DNA of 64,000 nucleotides from Gemmatimonadaceae bacterium (GCA_030835125.1 JAUQWM010000033.1:62001-126000); one strand, 5' to 3'. Numbered from the stretch's first letter, positions 26,266 through 34,471 are shown. Translations and numbers: made by a program. Notes: generated by a model from the letters alone, not told the origin.

Positions 26266-26294
26266 TTGCGTCTTCGGTATTTGTTCGGTATCTC
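26266..26294 (+). promoter_or_regulatory. Possible sigma-70-type promoter for the radical SAM gene
   Basis: TTGCGT (26266-26271) and TATCTC (26289-26294) are separated by 17 bp, just upstream of a purine-rich GGAGGG ribosome-binding site and the GTG at 26310. Confidence 0.35.
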
Positions 26295-26309: not shown

Positions 26310-27554
26310 GTGAGTCGCCCGTCCCCCGTCCGCCGTCCCCGTCCGAAAATGCAACTGCCGCTGATCTCCCCTCCCGCCCCGACCCCGCCGCCCCCGGCGT
26401 CCCTGCAACTCATCGGGACACAGGGGGACATCCGGTACTACGAGCAGGTGGCGAAGGGCGTGCTCAACGCGCCGGAAAGCACCGGCATGCCGTTCTGGTC
26501 GATCAACCCCTACATCGGCTGCGCCTTCGGGTGCGCGTACTGCTACGCTCGTTATGCACACCGGTACGTGGCGGAGCGGCGGACCGCGACGGGCACCGAC
26601 GGCATGGAGGAACTCACCGAGCTGCCGCCCTGGCTGGCGTTCGAGCGGCGGATCTTCGTCAAGCGGAATGCGGCCGAGGTGCTGCGACGCACCTTGCGAG
26701 GCAGGAGGACACCGGTCACAGGCCACCGGACCGCGACGTCAGGAGCCGGGGGGCAGGGATCGGAAAACGATTCCCGGTTCCCGATTCCCGCTTCCCCCCG
26801 CGGTGCCGAGTCACGCGTCACGAGTCACGAGTCACGTCTTGCCCGCCTCTGGAAAGGCGAAACGATAGTCATCGGCACGGCCACCGACCCCTACCAGCCC
26901 GCCGAGCGGCACTATCGCGTGACCCGCGGCCTGCTCGAGGTGCTGGCGGAGGAGAAGGGCCTGTCGATCGTCATCATCACCAAGAGCGCGATCATCACGC
27001 GCGACATCGACCTGCTGGCGCGGCTGGCGAACCGTTCGGCGCTCACCATCCACCTGTCGCTCATCACGCTCGATCGTGAACTGGCGCGGCGGCTCGAGCC
27101 GAGGGCCCCCACGCCGGAAGCGCGGGTGCGGGCGCTGGAGCGGCTGGCGGACGCGGGCATCGACGTCGGGATCAACATCATGCCGGTGCTGCCGGGGATC
27201 ACCGACCGGCCGGCGATGCTCGACGCGGTGGTGCGTCGCGTGAAGGCCGCAGGCGCGTCGCACGTCAATGCCTGCGCCCTGCGCCTCCGCGCCTCGGCCC
27301 GGCGCCGCTACCTGCCGTTCATCGAGACGGAATTCCCCTCACTGGCCGGTTCCTACCGCGCCGCGTTCGCCAACGGCCACCAGGTCGGCGATGCCTATCG
27401 CGAGGGGTTGAGCCGCTTCCTGCGCGACCGGTGCCGCAAGCACGGCATCACGTATGGATCGAAGACCGTCCGTGAAGAGCCCCTGCCTGCCGGTACGCCG
27501 GACCCACCGGCAACAACCCAACTGGCACTATCCCTCGTGACGCGTGACTCGTGA
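26310..27554 (+). CDS. Radical SAM protein, Rv2578c/SPL-like family
   Basis: The product is 414 residues from the GTG at 26310, chosen for its strong GGAGGG ribosome-binding site. The [4Fe-4S]/SAM motif is CAFGCAYCYAR (C-x3-C-x2-C). Downstream motifs are GTATDPYQPAE and SIVIITKSAIITRDIDLLARLA, typical of Rv2578c-type relatives of spore photoproduct lyase. The reaction is unknown. An extra stretch of about 45 residues between KRNAAEVLRRTLRG and LARLWKGETIVIG is made of heptad repeats. The stop codon is also inside a heptad array. It precedes the imuA-imuB-dnaE2 operon. Confidence 0.88.
   Translation: MSRPSPVRRPRPKMQLPLISPPAPTPPPPASLQLIGTQGDIRYYEQVAKGVLNAPESTGMPFWSINPYIGCAFGCAYCYARYAHRYVAERRTATGTDGMEELTELPPWLAFERRIFVKRNAAEVLRRTLRGRRTPVTGHRTATSGAGGQGSENDSRFPIPASPRGAESRVTSHESRLARLWKGETIVIGTATDPYQPAERHYRVTRGLLEVLAEEKGLSIVIITKSAIITRDIDLLARLANRSALTIHLSLITLDRELARRLEPRAPTPEARVRALERLADAGIDVGINIMPVLPGITDRPAMLDAVVRRVKAAGASHVNACALRLRASARRRYLPFIETEFPSLAGSYRAAFANGHQVGDAYREGLSRFLRDRCRKHGITYGSKTVREEPLPAGTPDPPATTQLALSLVTRDS
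26318..26345 (+). repeat. In-frame heptanucleotide array (CCGTCCC unit) at the radical SAM N-terminus
   Basis: Four heptads (CCGTCCC, CCGTCCG, CCGTCCC and a partial) encode PSPVRRPRP. Confidence 0.6.
26713..26836 (+). repeat. Composite in-frame heptanucleotide array in the radical SAM gene
   Basis: Three arrays follow one another: GGTCACA/GGCCACC (26713-26733), GATTCCC/GGTTCCC (26768-26790) and GAGTCAC/GCGTCAC (26808-26836). They encode SRFPIP and ESRVTSHESR. All are stop-free in the gene's frame and sit between two conserved blocks of the enzyme. Confidence 0.85.
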
Positions 27555-27611
27555 CTCGTGACTCGTGACTCGTGAGATGCCTGATGCCTGATGCCTGATG
27601 CCTGTTGCCTG
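27537..27611 (+). repeat. Two adjacent heptanucleotide arrays (GTGACTC then GCCTGAT) at a gene end
   Basis: About five GTGACTC units (27537-27574) contain the TGA stop of the radical SAM gene. They are followed at once by four to five GCCTGAT/GCCTGTT units (27576-27611). Both units carry a TGA that recurs in all three frames every 21 bp. The remaining gap to the next gene is 7 bp. Confidence 0.85.
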
Positions 27612-27618
27612 GTAGCTC

Positions 27619-27861
27619 TCAGTTCCTCGTTATGGCGAAATAAATGACGTACAGCCAGGAGAAGAACCCGTGAATGATGGCCCAGATGATCGAGTGGTGC
27701 AGGCTCCACGAGATCGTGATCGCGAGGGCGCTGCCCATCGTGACGCCGGCCTTGGCGACTTCGGTGGATCGAGAGGTCGTGTGCATCGTGAAGCCTCGTG
27801 CGGGTTGGCGGTCGAACGGCGTCCCGTCGGCGATGGGCCCGGTGTGCGGAGTGTCGGTCAT
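27619..27861 (-). CDS. Small membrane protein of unknown function
   Basis: The product is 80 residues, or 55 residues if it starts at the internal MHTTSRSTEV. The C-terminal 45 residues form one or two hydrophobic helices (AGVTMGSALAITISWSLHH, AIIHGFFSWLYVIYFAI). I do not recognise a family. It is transcribed opposite to the flanking radical SAM and imuA genes. Confidence 0.55.
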   Translation of the reverse strand: MTDTPHTGPIADGTPFDRQPARGFTMHTTSRSTEVAKAGVTMGSALAITISWSLHHSIIWAIIHGFFSWLYVIYFAITRN

Positions 27862-27994
27862 GGCAACGGTGTTCGTGGGGAGTCGCGTCAGGAGGAGACT
27901 ACGCGCATCCGGCCTCCGCAGATTCGCGTCTGTATCCTGGCTGCGTGCCGATGCCGCCTGCTGGCCTCAATCTGAAATCCCTGACACGGCACCC

Positions 27995-28049
27995 GTAATC
28001 CGCACTCCAATCTGCACTCCGCAATCTGCACCCTGCATTCTGCAATCGC
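27995..28049 (+). repeat. Heptanucleotide array (NNCTGCA unit) abutting the imuA start codon
   Basis: About seven heptads (ATCCGCA, CTCCA-, ATCTGCA, CTCCGCA, ATCTGCA, CCCTGCA, TTCTGCA) run directly into the ATG of imuA at 28050. The array occupies the place where a ribosome-binding site is expected, and none is visible. The rest of the 27862-28049 gap shows no gene and no clear LexA box. Confidence 0.8.
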
Positions 28050-29024
28050 ATGTCCCTCTCCGCCCTTCGCCAGCAGTTGTCGGTGCTGCTGCCGCCGGTT
28101 CGCGTCGGCGGCGGTGCCGCGATCCCCACCGGGATCCCGGTGCTGGATCGCGCGCTGTCGGACGGCGGGGTGCCGAGCGGGCGGCTGACGGAGATCGCCG
28201 GGGCGCGCGGCAGCGGGCGCACGACGCTCGTCAGGCAGCTGGTGCTGGCCGCCGTCACCGCCCGGCGGTGGGTGGCGGTGATCGACGGCTCCCGCACGCT
28301 GGCCCCGCGCGAGTGGGCCGGGGCGGGTGACAGCGGACGGCTCTGGGTGGTGCGCCCGCAGGCCGCCGACCGGAGCGCCTGGTGCGCCGACATCCTGCTC
28401 CGGAGCGGCGCGTTCAGCCTGGTGGTGCTCGACGGTGCCCCGGCCCTGCCCCGCACGATCGCCGTCCGCCTGACGAGGCTCGCCAGGGAACACGACGTGG
28501 CGCTGGTGGTGGTCGGCGATGCCCCGGTGATTGGCAGCGCCGTCCGGATGCGCGTGACGCGGGCCCTTCCTGCAGGGCGAGGCATCGGGCATCGGGCATC
28601 AGGCCTCGCCGGGTCGCGGGGTCACGAACGGCAAGGCATCGGGCATCAGGCATCAGGCATCGCCGAGTCACGCGTTACGAACGGCAAGGGACCAGGCATC
28701 GGGCATCAGGCATCGCCGAGTCACGAGTCACGACTATCCGTTGTCATCGAAAAAGGCGGTGTGCAACACGCCGTGGAGGTTCGCTGTGCAATCGAAGTGG
28801 CGCGTCGCCTGCGTGCGCATCCCGAGGTTCCCGATCGGCGCGGTGTGGCGAAACGCAATCGCTGGGGACAACTCGTTCCTTCCGCACCCGGGACAACCAG
28901 CGTCGAACGGGAAGGACCCGAACACCCTGGCGGCGGAGCCGCGCCTCGAAAGCGGCGATTCGCGGAGGCGCATTCCACGCGAGACGCGTTCCTCCTCGAC
29001 CGGAAGCCACCAGGCCGCACATGA
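28050..29024 (+). CDS. imuA: ImuA/SulA-like RecA-fold protein of the mutasome
   Basis: The product is 324 residues, longer than the usual 220-270. The N-terminal RecA-like fold has IPTGIPVLDRALSDGGVPSGR, Walker A GARGSGRTTLV (near residue 52) and the B-strand FSLVVLDGAP. ImuA works with ImuB and DnaE2 in damage-induced mutagenesis. A mixed heptad array (28580-28732, residues 178-228) enlarges it. The last 80 residues overlap imuB in another frame and have poorer codon usage there, so the functional end may lie near residue 250. Confidence 0.82.
   Translation: MSLSALRQQLSVLLPPVRVGGGAAIPTGIPVLDRALSDGGVPSGRLTEIAGARGSGRTTLVRQLVLAAVTARRWVAVIDGSRTLAPREWAGAGDSGRLWVVRPQAADRSAWCADILLRSGAFSLVVLDGAPALPRTIAVRLTRLAREHDVALVVVGDAPVIGSAVRMRVTRALPAGRGIGHRASGLAGSRGHERQGIGHQASGIAESRVTNGKGPGIGHQASPSHESRLSVVIEKGGVQHAVEVRCAIEVARRLRAHPEVPDRRGVAKRNRWGQLVPSAPGTTSVEREGPEHPGGGAAPRKRRFAEAHSTRDAFLLDRKPPGRT
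28580..28732 (+). repeat. Long composite in-frame heptanucleotide array in imuA
   Basis: GGCATCR units alternate with GAGTCAC-type units in four or five blocks, encoding repeated GIGHQAS/ASGIAES/SRVT. There is no stop in the imuA frame across about 150 bp. Confidence 0.85.
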
Positions 29025-30663
29025 GGTCCGGGGTCCGGAGTCCGAGGCCGGAGGGCGCACGGCCGGGCCACGGGTCACGCGTCACGAGTCACGCCACTGG
29101 GATGACCTGCCGATCGCGCTGGGCGACGGGCAGCGCATCCGGGCCGTGACCGCGGCCGGCGCGCGGGCGCACATCCGCGCCGGGATGACCGTGACGGAAG
29201 GGACGTCGAAGTGCGCGGACCTCCTGGTGTTTCCCTGGGACCAGGTGGTAGTGGACGAGGAGGTGCGTCGCGCCACCGCGGCATTCCTCGACGCCAGCCC
29301 GCAGGTCACGCCGGTCGCCGGCGCGCCGGGGCTGTGGTGGATCGGCGCGTCCGGGCTCGAGGCGCTCGGCGGCGAGCCGGCGCTGGCCGCGGCCCTCCTC
29401 ACGATCGCGCGGCGGTGGCATCCCGGGGCCCGGGTGGCGATCGCCGATTCGTGTGTCGCGGCGCGCGCGGGCACCTGGGAGACCGCGAGCGCAAGGCGCA
29501 GGGCATCGGGTATCGGGCACCAGGCATCACCGGGTCCCGATTCCCGATTCCCGGTTCCCGGTTCCCGGTTCACGATCGTCCCCCCCGGTACCGACGCGAC
29601 GTACCTCGCGACGGTCCCCCTCGGCCTCATCCCGATGGACGAGGCGATGGCCGGGGCACTGTCGGCGTTAGGCATCCGGACCGCCGGCGCGCTGGCGGCC
29701 CTCCCGCCGGACGATGTCGAGCAACGCTGGGGACGGACCGGGCTCGCGGCCTGGCACCTGGCGCGCGGGGACGACCGCCGCCGTCCCGGCCTCACCGCCG
29801 CCGACTTTCCCCGGTCGGCCTCGGCGGACCTGGTGCCCGGCGTCGCGACCATGGAACCGGTGCTCTTCCTGCTCCGGGCGATGCTCGAGCGACTGCTGGC
29901 CGGGCTGGTGACCGACGGGCGCGCCGCCGCGACGCTGGCCATCACCCTCACGCTCGACGACACGCGCGGCGCCGCCGGCGACGGTCCGGCCCATACCGTC
30001 ACGCGCGAAGTGCGGCTGGCCCATCCCATGGCCCGCCTCGTGCCGCTGTTCGAGCGATGCCGGGCGCTGCTGGACCGCTGGACGCTGCCGGCCCCGGTGT
30101 GCGCCGTGAGCGTGGCGATCGTCGCCACCGCGCCGCTGGCCGGCGAACAGGGCGACCTGCTCGATCCTTCCTGGCACGACCCGGCCGCTGCCGATGCCGC
30201 ATTCGCGCGCCTGCGCGCCGAACTGGGTGCCGACGCGATCGTCGTCCCCGTCGTGGTCGATGAGCACCGGCCCGAGCGGGCGGGAGGATGGGTGGCACCA
30301 GATGGGAGATGGGAGACGGGAGACGGGAGGCGCCCGCCGGTTCCCGAGTCCCGAGTCCCGATTTCCGATTCCCGATCCCCGATTCCCGATCCCCCCGTCC
30401 CGTCCTGTTCCCGCCAGCTCGAGACTCCCGAGCCGGTGGAGGTCGAGTGCGCCGGCGGCCAGCCCCGCGTCCTCTGGTGGCGCGGGCAGCGGATGCGGAT
30501 CGCACGCCCCCTCGGCCCCGAGCGCCTGGCCGGTGACTGGTGGAAGGACGGCTACGCGAGGGACTACTGGCGCTGCGAGGACCCGGAAGGCGAAGGCACG
30601 CTGGTGCTGTATCACGACCACTCGTCAGGCAGCGCCTGGTTCGTGCAGGGGTGGCATGACTGA
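28786..30663 (+). CDS. imuB: ImuB, Y-family polymerase-like mutasome protein
   Basis: The product is 625 residues from GTG 28786, chosen because GGAGG lies 6 nt upstream and because ImuB proteins begin with the WRVACVRIPRFPI-type segment. Y-family features such as ALGDGQRIRAVTAAGARAHIRAGMT and the HhH-like GALSALGIRTAGALAALP are present. ImuB is catalytically inactive in general and bridges DnaE2 to the clamp. Three heptad arrays (29023, 29488, 30300) make it longer than the usual 500. It overlaps imuA by 239 bp and dnaE2 by 8 bp. Confidence 0.88.
   Translation: MQSKWRVACVRIPRFPIGAVWRNAIAGDNSFLPHPGQPASNGKDPNTLAAEPRLESGDSRRRIPRETRSSSTGSHQAAHEVRGPESEAGGRTAGPRVTRHESRHWDDLPIALGDGQRIRAVTAAGARAHIRAGMTVTEGTSKCADLLVFPWDQVVVDEEVRRATAAFLDASPQVTPVAGAPGLWWIGASGLEALGGEPALAAALLTIARRWHPGARVAIADSCVAARAGTWETASARRRASGIGHQASPGPDSRFPVPGSRFTIVPPGTDATYLATVPLGLIPMDEAMAGALSALGIRTAGALAALPPDDVEQRWGRTGLAAWHLARGDDRRRPGLTAADFPRSASADLVPGVATMEPVLFLLRAMLERLLAGLVTDGRAAATLAITLTLDDTRGAAGDGPAHTVTREVRLAHPMARLVPLFERCRALLDRWTLPAPVCAVSVAIVATAPLAGEQGDLLDPSWHDPAAADAAFARLRAELGADAIVVPVVVDEHRPERAGGWVAPDGRWETGDGRRPPVPESRVPISDSRSPIPDPPVPSCSRQLETPEPVEVECAGGQPRVLWWRGQRMRIARPLGPERLAGDWWKDGYARDYWRCEDPEGEGTLVLYHDHSSGSAWFVQGWHD
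29023..29094 (+). repeat. In-frame heptanucleotide array in imuB (GGTCCGG then GGTCACG units)
   Basis: GGTCCGG, GGTCCGG, AGTCCGA units are followed by GGTCACG, CGTCACG, AGTCACG. They encode EVRGPESE and PRVTRHESR between the N-terminal strand and the conserved ALGDG block. Confidence 0.75.
29488..29572 (+). repeat. In-frame composite heptanucleotide array in imuB
   Basis: GCGCAAG-like, GGCATCR and GATTCCC/GGTTCCC units follow in series and encode ASGIGHQAS and PDSRFPVPGSRF. All are in the stop-free orientation. Confidence 0.85.
30300..30397 (+). repeat. In-frame composite heptanucleotide array in imuB C-terminal region
   Basis: GGGAGAY units (30303-30330) are followed by CCCGAGT/CCCGATT/CCCGATC units (30343-30392). 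They encode GRWETGDGRR and PESRVPISDSRSPIPDP. Confidence 0.85.
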
Positions 30664-33600
30664 ACAGCAAGGCCACAGGCCACTGGCCACAGGCCAGGGG
30701 GAGGACCGCCCGTCTCCCACCTCCCGTCTCCCGTCTCCCTACGTCGAGCTTCACTGCCACTCCGTCTTCTCGCTGCTCGACGGGGCGTCGGAGCCGGAGG
30801 AGCTGGTGGCGCGGGCCAAGGCGTTAGGCATGCCGGCGCTGGCCCTCACCGACCACGACGACCTGGGCGGCGCCGTCCGGTTCGCGCACGCCGCCCGCGA
30901 CCTGGGGCTCGAGGGCATCCTCGGCGCCGAGCTGACCGTGCTGGCCGGCGGCGCCCGCACCCACCTCGTCGTACTGGCCGAGTCGCGCGAGGGCTACGGG
31001 AACCTGTGCACCCTCATCACGCGCGCGCGCATGGACACCACGCGCGGCGACCCGGCGGTCACGCTCGAGACGCTCGCCCGCCATGCCCGTGGCCTGTTCG
31101 CCCTCACCGGGTGCCCGTCCGGCTGGGTGCCGCAACGCCTGGCCGCCGGTGACGACGCCGGCGCCTGCGAGGCGGCCGCGACGCTGCTCGACCTCTTCGA
31201 GGGACGCCTCGCCATCGAGTGCTGGGACCACCGCCTGCCCGAGGAACGCGCACTCGTCAGGCAGCTCATCCCGCTGGCGCGCTCCCTCGGCATCCCCTGG
31301 GTGGTGACGAACGACGTCCACTACGCGCTTCCCACCGGCCGGATCGTCCACGACGTGCTGTCGGCCATCCGCCACCAGCGCACGCTGGACGAGATGGGAA
31401 CGCGGCTGCGGCCGAACGGCGAGTGGTACCTGCGCAGCGCGGCCCAGATGCGGCGGCGCTGGCAACTGGACGACACCGGGATCCGCACCACCCTGGCCAT
31501 CGCCGAGCGGTGCGCGTTCCGGCTGGCGGACCTGAAGCCGACCTTGCCGGACTTTCCGCTGCCGCCCGGCGTGAGTGCCGATGACTACCTCAGGCGCCTG
31601 GTGGAGCAGGGAGCAATGGAACGGATTGCGCAGAGCGCAACGCGCAAAGGGACAGACGCAACGGAGAGGTCGGAGGTCCGAGGTCCGAGGTCCGGGGCAG
31701 TGCCGGGTCACGAGTCACGAGTCACGAGTCACGAACTTCCCGACCGCCATCGCCACCAGATCGACCACGAGCTGGACCTCATCCGGAAGCTCGGCCTCGC
31801 CGGCTACTTCCTCATCGTCTGGGACATCGTCCGCTTCGCGCGGCGCGCGGGCGTGCTCTGCCAGGGGCGCGGGTCGGCGGCCAACTCCGTCGTCTGCTAC
31901 TGTCTCGGCATCACGGCGATCGATCCGGTGAAGATGGACCTGCTGTTCGAGCGGTTCCTGAGCGAGGAGCGGCGCGAGGCGCCGGACATCGACATCGACT
32001 TCGCGCACCGGGATCGCGAGGAGGTGCTCCAGTACGTCTACCGGCGATACGGACGCGAGCATGCCGCCATGGTCTGCGAGCACATCACGTTCCGCGGGCG
32101 GTCGGCGGTGCGCGACACGGCGCGGGTACTGGGCTTCTCGGTGGAGCAGGCCGACGTCCTCAGCACGCTCGCCGACCGGTTCTCGGCCGAGGCGACGGCC
32201 GAGGCGCTGCGACAGGGCGCGAGCCAGGAGGCGATGGCGGGCCGGCACTACGACCTCGATCCGCAGTCCGACCGGCCGGCGGTGCCCGACGACGCGCGAC
32301 GCAAGCCGGAGGAGTGGACGGCAGAGCGGCTGTTGCAGGGCGCAGAGCGCAAGGCGCAAGGCGCAGAGGGCCTGCCGAGTCACGAGTCACGAGTCACGAG
32401 TCACGACAAGGCATCAGGCATCAGGCATCAGGCATCGCCGGGTCATGAGTCACGACTCAAGAGTCACGATCGGGACGACACCGGCCTCGACCTCGGCGAC
32501 CCGCGGGTGAAGGTGTTTCCCGACATCGTGGCCGGGTTGCACCAGGTCCCGCGCCATCGTTCCATCCACGTGGGCGGGTTCGTGCTCACGCGCGAGCCGC
32601 TGCGCACGGTGGTCCCGATCGAGCCGGCCTCCATGCCGGGGCGCACGGTGATCCAGTGGGAGCGGGACGACCTCGACCCCGCCGGCCTGGTGAAGATCGA
32701 CCTGCTCGGCCTGGGCATGCTCACCGTGCTCCAGGACTGCCTGAAGTACATCCATGCCGTGCGCGGCGTCTCGCTCGACCTGGCCGCGATCGACATGACC
32801 GACCAGGCCGTCTACGACGACCTCTGTCGCGCCGACACCATCGGCGTCTTCCAGGTGGAGAGCCGGGCGCAGATGAACACCCTGCCCCGCCTCAAGCCGC
32901 GCTGCTTCTACGACCTGGTGGTGGAGGTCGCGCTCATCCGCCCCGGGCCGATCCAGGGCGACATGGTGAACCCGTACCTGCGGCGCCGACTGGGCGAGGA
33001 GGCGGTTACGTTCGCGCATCCCTCGCTGGAGCCGGTGCTCAAGCGTACGTTAGGCGTGCCGTTGTTCCAGGAACAGGGGATGCAGGTGGCGATCGCCGCC
33101 GCGGGCTTCACGCCCGGCCAGGCGGACGTGCTGCGGAAGGCGATGGGCCACAAGCGGTCGCACGAGCGCATGGCGGCGATCTGCGCGCAGCTCGTCGAGG
33201 GCATGCAGCGCAACGGGATCGACGAGGCGACCGCCCGGCGGATCTACAACCAGATCAATGCGTTCGCCGACTACGGGTTCCCCGAGTCGCACGCCGCCAG
33301 CTTCGCGCTCATCGTCTACGCGTCGGCGTACCTCAGGCACTACTACGCGGCGGAGTTCCTGGCCGCGATGCTCAACGCGCAGCCGATGGGGTTCTACTCG
33401 GTGGGCACGCTGATCGAGGACGCCAGGCGGCATGGCGTCACGGTCCTGCCGATCGACCTGACCACGTCGGCCTGGGACCACTCCCTGGAACTCGGCGATG
33501 GGCGGCTGGTGGTGCCGTCCGGGGGAGTCGTGCGGACGGGCCAGGCATCGGGCATCAGGCATCGGGCATCAACGGTGCCGGGTCACGAGTCACGAGTCAC

Positions 33601-34471
33601 GAGTCACACTCCCGCGGTCAGGCTGGGGCTGCGCCTGGTGCGCGGACTCGGGTCCGTGGCGCGGGAGCGACTCGAGAAGGCGCTGGTCGACGGGCCGTTC
33701 ACCGACATCCGCGACTTCGTCCGGCGCTCCGGCGTGGACCAGGGTGCCGTGCGCGCGTTATGCGAAGCGGGCGCGTTCGACCGGATGGTCGATGACGTCG
33801 CGCCGAACCAGCGCCGGCGCGTCGCCCTCTGGCGGGCCCTGGACGCGATGCGGGGAGATGCCGGGCCGCTCGCTCCGCGCGCGAGGCCACAGGCCACGGA
33901 CCATGGGCGAGGAAAAGTCCCGATTCCCGATTCCCGATTCCCGATTCCCGACCCACCGAACGGCGAGGCACCAGGCATCGGGCATCAGGCATCCGCCGTG
34001 CCGATTCACGAGTCGCGAGTCACGAATCACGAGCTGTTCCCGGGCATGACTCGCATCGAGCTCACGGACGCGGACTACCGGATGACCGGCCTCTCGCTCA
34101 ACGGCCATCCCATGCGCCACCTCCGCCGGCTCCTGTCGCCTAACGCGGTGCGCACCGCCGATGACCTCATCCGGGCCGGCCGGGACGGCGAGCGGGTCGC
34201 CCATGCCGGGCTCGTCATCGTCAGGCAGCGACCGGGCACCGCCAGGGGGTTCGTCTTCCTCTCCCTGGAGGACGAGACCGGCATCCTCAACGTGGTCGTG
34301 ACACCGAAGCGCTTCGAGCGGCAGGCGCTCCTCATCTCCAACTCCCCCCTCCTCCTCGTGCGCGGGACGCTGCAGGTGGAGCACGGCGTCGTGAACCTGC
34401 GCGGCGAGACCTTTCACGCCCTCAAGGCCGGCGCGGGGGAGGACTGGGCCCGGAGCCACGACTTCCACTGA
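30656..34471 (+). CDS. dnaE2: Error-prone DNA polymerase III alpha-type subunit DnaE2
   Basis: The product is 1271 residues (the family is usually 1030-1100). The PHP domain begins at VELHCHSVFSLLDGAS (near residue 30). Palm motifs include GYFLIVWDIVRFAR, CQGRGSAANSVVCY and the catalytic PDIDIDF. A helix-hairpin-helix region (GLRLVRGLGSVARERL) and a C-terminal OB fold (VAHAGLVIVRQRPGTARGFVFLSLEDE) follow. It performs mutagenic translesion synthesis with ImuA and ImuB. Five heptad arrays add roughly 190 residues at domain junctions, which accounts for the extra length. Confidence 0.95.
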   Translation: MTEQQGHRPLATGQGEDRPSPTSRLPSPYVELHCHSVFSLLDGASEPEELVARAKALGMPALALTDHDDLGGAVRFAHAARDLGLEGILGAELTVLAGGARTHLVVLAESREGYGNLCTLITRARMDTTRGDPAVTLETLARHARGLFALTGCPSGWVPQRLAAGDDAGACEAAATLLDLFEGRLAIECWDHRLPEERALVRQLIPLARSLGIPWVVTNDVHYALPTGRIVHDVLSAIRHQRTLDEMGTRLRPNGEWYLRSAAQMRRRWQLDDTGIRTTLAIAERCAFRLADLKPTLPDFPLPPGVSADDYLRRLVEQGAMERIAQSATRKGTDATERSEVRGPRSGAVPGHESRVTSHELPDRHRHQIDHELDLIRKLGLAGYFLIVWDIVRFARRAGVLCQGRGSAANSVVCYCLGITAIDPVKMDLLFERFLSEERREAPDIDIDFAHRDREEVLQYVYRRYGREHAAMVCEHITFRGRSAVRDTARVLGFSVEQADVLSTLADRFSAEATAEALRQGASQEAMAGRHYDLDPQSDRPAVPDDARRKPEEWTAERLLQGAERKAQGAEGLPSHESRVTSHDKASGIRHQASPGHESRLKSHDRDDTGLDLGDPRVKVFPDIVAGLHQVPRHRSIHVGGFVLTREPLRTVVPIEPASMPGRTVIQWERDDLDPAGLVKIDLLGLGMLTVLQDCLKYIHAVRGVSLDLAAIDMTDQAVYDDLCRADTIGVFQVESRAQMNTLPRLKPRCFYDLVVEVALIRPGPIQGDMVNPYLRRRLGEEAVTFAHPSLEPVLKRTLGVPLFQEQGMQVAIAAAGFTPGQADVLRKAMGHKRSHERMAAICAQLVEGMQRNGIDEATARRIYNQINAFADYGFPESHAASFALIVYASAYLRHYYAAEFLAAMLNAQPMGFYSVGTLIEDARRHGVTVLPIDLTTSAWDHSLELGDGRLVVPSGGVVRTGQASGIRHRASTVPGHESRVTSHTPAVRLGLRLVRGLGSVARERLEKALVDGPFTDIRDFVRRSGVDQGAVRALCEAGAFDRMVDDVAPNQRRRVALWRALDAMRGDAGPLAPRARPQATDHGRGKVPIPDSRFPIPDPPNGEAPGIGHQASAVPIHESRVTNHELFPGMTRIELTDADYRMTGLSLNGHPMRHLRRLLSPNAVRTADDLIRAGRDGERVAHAGLVIVRQRPGTARGFVFLSLEDETGILNVVVTPKRFERQALLISNSPLLLVRGTLQVEHGVVNLRGETFHALKAGAGEDWARSHDFH
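30670..30739 (+). repeat. In-frame heptanucleotide arrays at DnaE2 N-terminus (GGCCACA then GTCTCCC units)
   Basis: Three to four GGCCACA/GGCCACT units (30670-30697) and four GTCTCCC/ACCTCCC units (30712-30739) encode residues 5-28, immediately before the PHP domain. Confidence 0.85.
31628..31735 (+). repeat. In-frame composite heptanucleotide array in dnaE2 (GCGCAAN, AGGTCCG, AGTCACG units)
   Basis: Three unit types in series encode about residues 325-360 (SEVRGPRS, HESRVTSHE), between the PHP-palm connector and the RHRHQIDHELDLI block. Confidence 0.88.
32337..32469 (+). repeat. In-frame composite heptanucleotide array in dnaE2 (GCGCARG, AGTCACG, GGCATCA units)
   Basis: Units GCGCAGA/GCGCAAG, then AGTCACG x4, then GGCATCA x4, then degenerate AGTCACG encode residues 561-605, including SHESRVTSHD and ASGIRHQAS. 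It interrupts the segment before the conserved DLGDPRVKVFPDI. Confidence 0.88.
33541..33608 (+). repeat. In-frame heptanucleotide array in dnaE2 (GGCATCR then AGTCACG units)
   Basis: Encodes residues 962-985 with ASGIRHRAS and HESRVTSH, just before the helix-hairpin-helix region. Confidence 0.85.
33884..34032 (+). repeat. In-frame composite heptanucleotide array in dnaE2 (GGCCACA, GATTCCC, GGCATCR, AGTCACG units)
   Basis: Four unit families follow in series and encode residues 1077-1126 (PIPDSRFPIPD, GIGHQAS, HESRVTNHE). It lies before the C-terminal OB fold. Confidence 0.88.

Follow-up and report, generated by a model that had tools for sequence, protein, structure and literature searches.

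Heptanucleotide arrays recur within the coding sequence of SOS mutasome genes in Gemmatimonadales

Heptameric tandem repeats, including the exact GGGAATC unit, are already known. In the heptanucleotide LSSR (Mrazek 2007, via PMC4679880) and the cyanobacterial STRR, tandem 7-mers are dominant, genome-wide and mostly intergenic, repeats in coding sequence are mostly multiples of three, and an origin by slippage in steps of 7 nt is a proposal cited in PMC4679880. The (GGGAATC)n arrays of Xanthomonas and Nostoc (PMC4692102) have about four units each and prefer non-coding DNA. Repetitive DNA that is tolerated in frame inside protein genes is represented by the Rickettsia palindromic elements (RPEs), which measure ~150 bp, carry a conserved peptide and are found in many unrelated genes (PMC10969869). 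Moreover, coding tandem repeats whose copy number can alter frame or function are known from mutL (PMC2955026), which controls mutability, as do the genes considered here, and from neuO (PMC13001214), where 3–53 heptamers are found, most often 20, the gene is ON when the repeat number is divisible by 3, and 66% of the alleles are OFF.

The locus described here lies in a window of 64,000 nucleotides (G000:C8:62001-126000), the whole stretch of DNA that was analysed, from a 4.48-Mb genome of the Gemmatimonadaceae (G000) whose nearest named relatives are Gemmatimonadaceae MAGs. It contains adjacent imuA, imuB and dnaE2 genes with Pfam RecA, IMS_C and DNA_pol3 domains in this order, the arrangement of an SOS mutasome, preceded by a radical SAM gene and a putative regulatory box:

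26273..26291, plus strand: LexA-box-like direct repeat TTCGGTATTTGTTCGGTAT, 5' of the operon, recognized by similarity to the boxes of relatives
26349..27554, plus strand: radical SAM gene, first gene of the operon (Pfam PF04055; alignment with relatives)
28050..29024, plus strand: imuA (Pfam RecA-like PF00154; aligns with relatives to the C-terminus)
28786..30663, plus strand: imuB (Pfam IMS_C PF11799, E 6e-4, just below the curated cut-off; alignment with relatives)
30656..34471, plus strand: dnaE2, 1271 aa, with PHP, polymerase, finger, HhH and OB domains (Pfam)

The imuA and imuB genes overlap out of frame by ~240 nt (28786-29024), and the protein parts encoded by the overlap can both be aligned with relatives. 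The TTCGG direct repeat is likely a LexA box, to which LexA would bind. Similar TTCGG-N6-TTCGG boxes are located 5' of the same operon in L138, L139, L140, L143 and L144, and also 5' of lexA and recA in G000; the exact pattern of the box occurs once in the whole G000 genome, and a scan for LexA-like boxes in an 849-kb sample (19% of G000) found only the mutasome operon.

Arrays were detected with Tandem Repeats Finder (TRF) and with our own period scan, which agree on exact 7-bp arrays at the places indicated by an earlier sequence-only reading of this region. That reading had counted at least ten arrays, a number that stands, while its tally per gene is replaced by 16 coding arrays of exact 7-bp period with a score of at least 14, distributed as one in the radical SAM gene, two in imuA, four in imuB and nine in dnaE2, with further weaker arrays below this score. 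The array at 26314-26344, previously placed at the N-terminus of the radical SAM protein, is instead upstream of the likely start codon (ATG 26349). The main array sites are as follows:

26696..26844, plus strand: radical SAM cassette, GATTCCC-type unit x4 and then GAGTCAC x4, absent in relatives (TRF, scan, alignment)
27534..27611, plus strand: double array (CTCGTGA)6(GATGCCT)5 at the radical SAM 3' end, supplying the stop codon
28571..28735, plus strand: imuA composite cassette in which (AGGCATC)n(CGAGTCA)n recurs as three copies of 53 bp at 28576-28733 (TRF period 53 x 3.0 and period 7)
28944..29096, plus strand: imuB site 1, GGTCCGG and CGGGTCA arrays (TRF, scan)
29490..29578, plus strand: imuB site 2, GGGCATC and TCCCGGT arrays (TRF, scan, alignment)
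30293..30416, plus strand: imuB site 3, AGACGGG and TCCCGAT arrays (TRF, scan, alignment)
30665..30740, plus strand: dnaE2 N-terminal AGGCCAC and CTCCCGT arrays (TRF, scan)
31627..31738, plus strand: dnaE2 site 1, GAGGTCC and GTCACGA arrays, in a low-pLDDT segment (scan, comparison)
32333..32478, plus strand: dnaE2 site 2, GCAGGGC, CGAGTCA and AGGCATC arrays, variable in all relatives
33539..33610, plus strand: dnaE2 site 3, GGCATCG and GTCACGA arrays, where other genera have different units of 7 or 8 bp
33886..34043, plus strand: dnaE2 site 4, TCCCGAT x4.9, AGGCATC and CGAGTCA arrays (scan, comparison)

Composite arrays show a preferred order, with a variable unit followed by GAGTCAC in 15 of 18 pairs. 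With a mean of 4.5 units, mutasome arrays are shorter than those in non-coding DNA (mean 5.6, P = 0.006), and they are often imperfect. The 3' end of the radical SAM gene has been replaced by the heptamer array 27534-27575, which provides the stop codon.

Alignments with relatives place the arrays between conserved blocks of the mutasome proteins, as had been proposed, and homologues differ at the array sites instead of carrying the same residues there, which rules out conserved protein segments. The excess length ascribed to the arrays varies among the proteins. The radical SAM protein does contain an array-derived insert of 46 aa, close to the ~45 residues expected, that is missing from all the relatives compared. 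DnaE2 is indeed longer, by ~150–160 aa rather than ~190 when compared with the array-free proteins of L145 (1123 aa) and L153 (1110 aa), whereas ImuB, supposedly more than 100 residues longer than usual, shows no clear excess over its relatives, in which non-heptameric linkers of comparable size occupy the corresponding positions. In the dnaE2 gene of L146 (G119), an insert of 163 residues is found near the PHP domain, and its cassette recurs elsewhere in the same protein.

The relationship between the arrays and the reading frame has to be stated differently from the sequence-only reading, in which three units of 7 bp (21 bp) were thought to preserve the frame. In a heptamer array without stop codons, all three frames are open and encode the same peptide; nevertheless, whenever a 7-bp unit is added or removed, everything downstream changes frame. 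Eight of the 10 linkers have no stop codon in any sense frame, compared with 21–45% of random coding stretches, because their heptamers are stop-free, and every unit with a stop codon on one strand (10/10) is found in the stop-free orientation in coding DNA. The mutasome proteins are still under purifying selection, as judged from sequence comparison: in the conserved parts of dnaE2, G000 and the sister species G001 differ with dN 0.073 and dS 0.61 (dN/dS 0.12). This ratio, together with the open frames, rules out decay of the operon. The dnaE2 gene runs in one frame across its five domains in 38 of 40 cases, the exceptions being G026 (L142), shifted in the site-3 linker, and G123 (L147), shifted elsewhere. 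The L142 linker has a 10-bp copy among 12-bp copies, either a real OFF allele or an assembly error. All four internal array sites of DnaE2 are predicted to be disordered, since AlphaFold2 assigns them pLDDT <50, with good confidence between them, and they are the four longest segments of the protein with pLDDT < 50.

Although the arrays had been regarded as particular to this region, they are found genome-wide. The 849-kb sample, in which gene positions were taken from a simple codon-model gene caller, contains 132 period-7 arrays (~155 per Mb), none of period 8 and three of period 9, with 29 different units when counted by rotation and strand. A first-order Markov resample contained no period-7 array, and the comparison of 132 with 0 rules out an origin by chance or low complexity. 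Of the 132 arrays, 73 lie between genes, 36 extend over a gene end and 23 fall within coding sequence. As in LSSR and STRR, therefore, dispersed 7-nt arrays occur above chance and are mainly intergenic or at gene edges (109/132). The TCCCGAT/CCGATTC unit is exactly GGGAATC on the other strand, and the Xanthomonas and Nostoc arrays share with those described here both the length of about four units and the non-coding preference; unlike in that system, GGGAATC is only one of ~29 units here, and several of its arrays are part of coding sequence, where the G-rich strand serves as template. Among the intergenic arrays, those at convergent 3' ends are overrepresented, with 23 in 14.6 kb compared with 10 in the 36.4 kb that separate divergent genes. 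Inverted pairs are frequent, and in 12 of 13 the purine-rich strand comes first. Those between convergent genes (e.g., L183 13261-13400) may act as RNA hairpins or terminators.

Within coding DNA the distribution is extremely uneven. The mutasome operon, with 7.6 kb, holds 16 of the 23 coding arrays, and the remaining seven are scattered over ~729 kb of other coding DNA, four of them near a gene start or end and three truly internal (two in a penicillin amidase gene and one in a TGT gene). The density in the operon is thus ~220 times that of other coding DNA when all seven are counted and ~510 times when only the three internal ones are, and at 2.1 arrays per kb it is higher even than in non-coding DNA (0.95 per kb, P = 0.003). 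Internal arrays are missing from hundreds of other genes in the sample, the G000 dnaE1 paralogue has none in its aligned part, and no coding array was seen in the fragments of recA and lexA of G000 that were read.

This preference is shared by other soil bacteria of the order Gemmatimonadales. In a survey carried out independently of the window, in-ORF non-triplet arrays were found in 17 of 40 Gemmatimonadaceae dnaE2 genes from 8 genera, compared with none of 20 dnaE1 genes (P = 5e-4), as well as in 6 of 25 imuB and 2 of 17 imuA genes. Outside the phylum, one of 68 dnaE2 genes carries such an array (P = 4e-8 against 17/40), a weak contrast in that most of those genomes show few arrays anyway. 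In a sister family of the same order, arrays are present in 11 of 30 DnaE2-type ORFs, and at those loci none lies outside the ORF. One of these 30 ORFs, L335 (G148), is an array-bearing dnaE2 whose protein is 81% identical to that of the window, compared with 44–50% in its relatives, which may reflect transfer or mis-binning. A record titled Candidatus Kuenenia stuttgartiensis (L012) has a Gemmatimonadaceae-like dnaE2 (78% identity) and is probably mislabelled.

Other genera, whose linkers were compared on gene calls from a simple codon model, have arrays with a period of 7 or 8 bp in dnaE2, imuB or imuA that are built from different units, and the units at the same sites differ between species, even congeners. 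In the sister species G001, each of the four dnaE2 sites compared is occupied by arrays, and most of the units differ from those of G000; site 1 holds AGCGCCG instead, without the GTCACGA array. Away from these sites, an array is usually confined to a single species. Among the genera compared, only this one has the site-4 insert. In G077, G112 and G141, every array sampled away from the mutasome lies between genes or upstream of a gene. An assembly artefact is unlikely, since genomes of 8 genera, assembled independently, have arrays of other units at the same sites of the mutasome genes. Mutasome genes are, in summary, a hot spot for internal arrays across Gemmatimonadales. This situation differs from that described in the LSSR and STRR literature in that units of 7 and 8 bp stand in frame, in a specific gene set and in several genera. 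The literature searched contained no account of a single functional system colonised repeatedly and in frame throughout an order: no relevant paper joining heptamer tandem repeats with Gemmatimonadota was retrieved, the one match being concerned with frameshift prediction, and no paper was found for STRR together with 'heptanucleotide'.

We consider it probable, at roughly two chances in three (0.68), that the ordinary heptameric slippage repeats of the genome repeatedly colonise the disordered linkers of SOS mutasome genes. The arrays would be made and extended by strand slippage in steps of 7 nt. Composite arrays may then be copied as modules, as suggested by their preferred order (15/18) and by the 53-bp higher-order repeat in imuA. 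Arrays would lodge again and again in disordered linkers of the non-essential, SOS-induced mutasome genes of this order, where an array would survive only in an orientation free of stops and with a net length of 3n, because the proteins are under purifying selection. In turn, linkers would be filled by the current units of each genome, so that content turns over fast while sites persist. The enrichment itself is most likely due to the tolerance of the linkers combined with a raised formation of repeats in an operon that is transcribed while SOS repair synthesis is under way. Transcription under SOS conditions does not suffice by itself as a cause, since recA and lexA are array-free in the fragments read despite their LexA-like boxes.

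An explanation by tolerance alone, with arrays arising at an equal rate everywhere and mutasome linkers being simply the most tolerant coding DNA (disordered loops of non-essential genes), is rather unlikely, although it has several facts on its side. DnaE2 is non-essential in all genetic studies, the length of its core correlates with GC content, unlike that of DnaE1 (PMC3919608), and the four internal array sites coincide with predicted disorder. However, tolerance leaves unexplained both the higher density of arrays in the mutasome than in intergenic DNA and the scarcity of internal arrays in other genes, the latter a difficulty also for our preferred reading insofar as it relies on tolerance. 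The near absence of arrays from dnaE2 outside the phylum points in the same direction, weakly, given how array-poor most of those genomes are. Tolerance thus accounts for part of the targeting, but not for the excess over intergenic DNA.

Since a change of one unit shifts the frame, phase variation is mechanically possible, and a contingency switch would turn the mutasome off and on, with lineages alternating between mutable and stable states. Frame-shifting units of 7, 8 and 11 bp do stand in open frames of mutator genes across an order, neuO heptamers and mutL repeat switches provide precedents, and a single natural frameshift, that of L142, falls within a linker that bears arrays. Nevertheless, the L142 shift, which coincides with a 2-bp irregularity in a 10/12-bp repeat, may be an assembly error, and 38 of 40 dnaE2 genes are ON, in contrast with the mostly OFF alleles of neuO. 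Unlike the switching repeats of mutL and neuO, moreover, the mutasome arrays are short (4–5 units), often imperfect and several per gene; they are no long pure unstable tracts, which argues against fast switching. We therefore regard such a switch as improbable, and give equally little credit to an order-wide version in which selection keeps some non-triplet linker array, whatever its unit, so that Gemmatimonadales populations would always mix cells with mutagenesis off and on.

Insertion in frame and subsequent erosion of mobile palindromic elements of the RPE type, for which inverted array pairs between genes and in dnaE2 of other genera (L270, L272, L281) could speak, with RPEs as the known case of in-frame insertion, is very improbable, given that no conserved element sequence extends beyond the unit, units differ between species, pairwise comparisons reveal no target-site duplication, only short units are shared, rather than a conserved ~150-bp element in many unrelated genes, and coding arrays are concentrated in one operon.

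The TTCGG-N6-TTCGG box could serve to delimit the SOS regulon in Gemmatimonadaceae. No class of long simple repeats is commoner in bacteria than the heptamers; a gene set that repeatedly draws heptamers into coding DNA, where each unit change breaks the frame, is a sharp test bed for how such repeats are made and targeted. Moreover, the fact that the targets are genes of SOS mutagenesis raises the question of whether mutability itself is switched by slippage in these bacteria.
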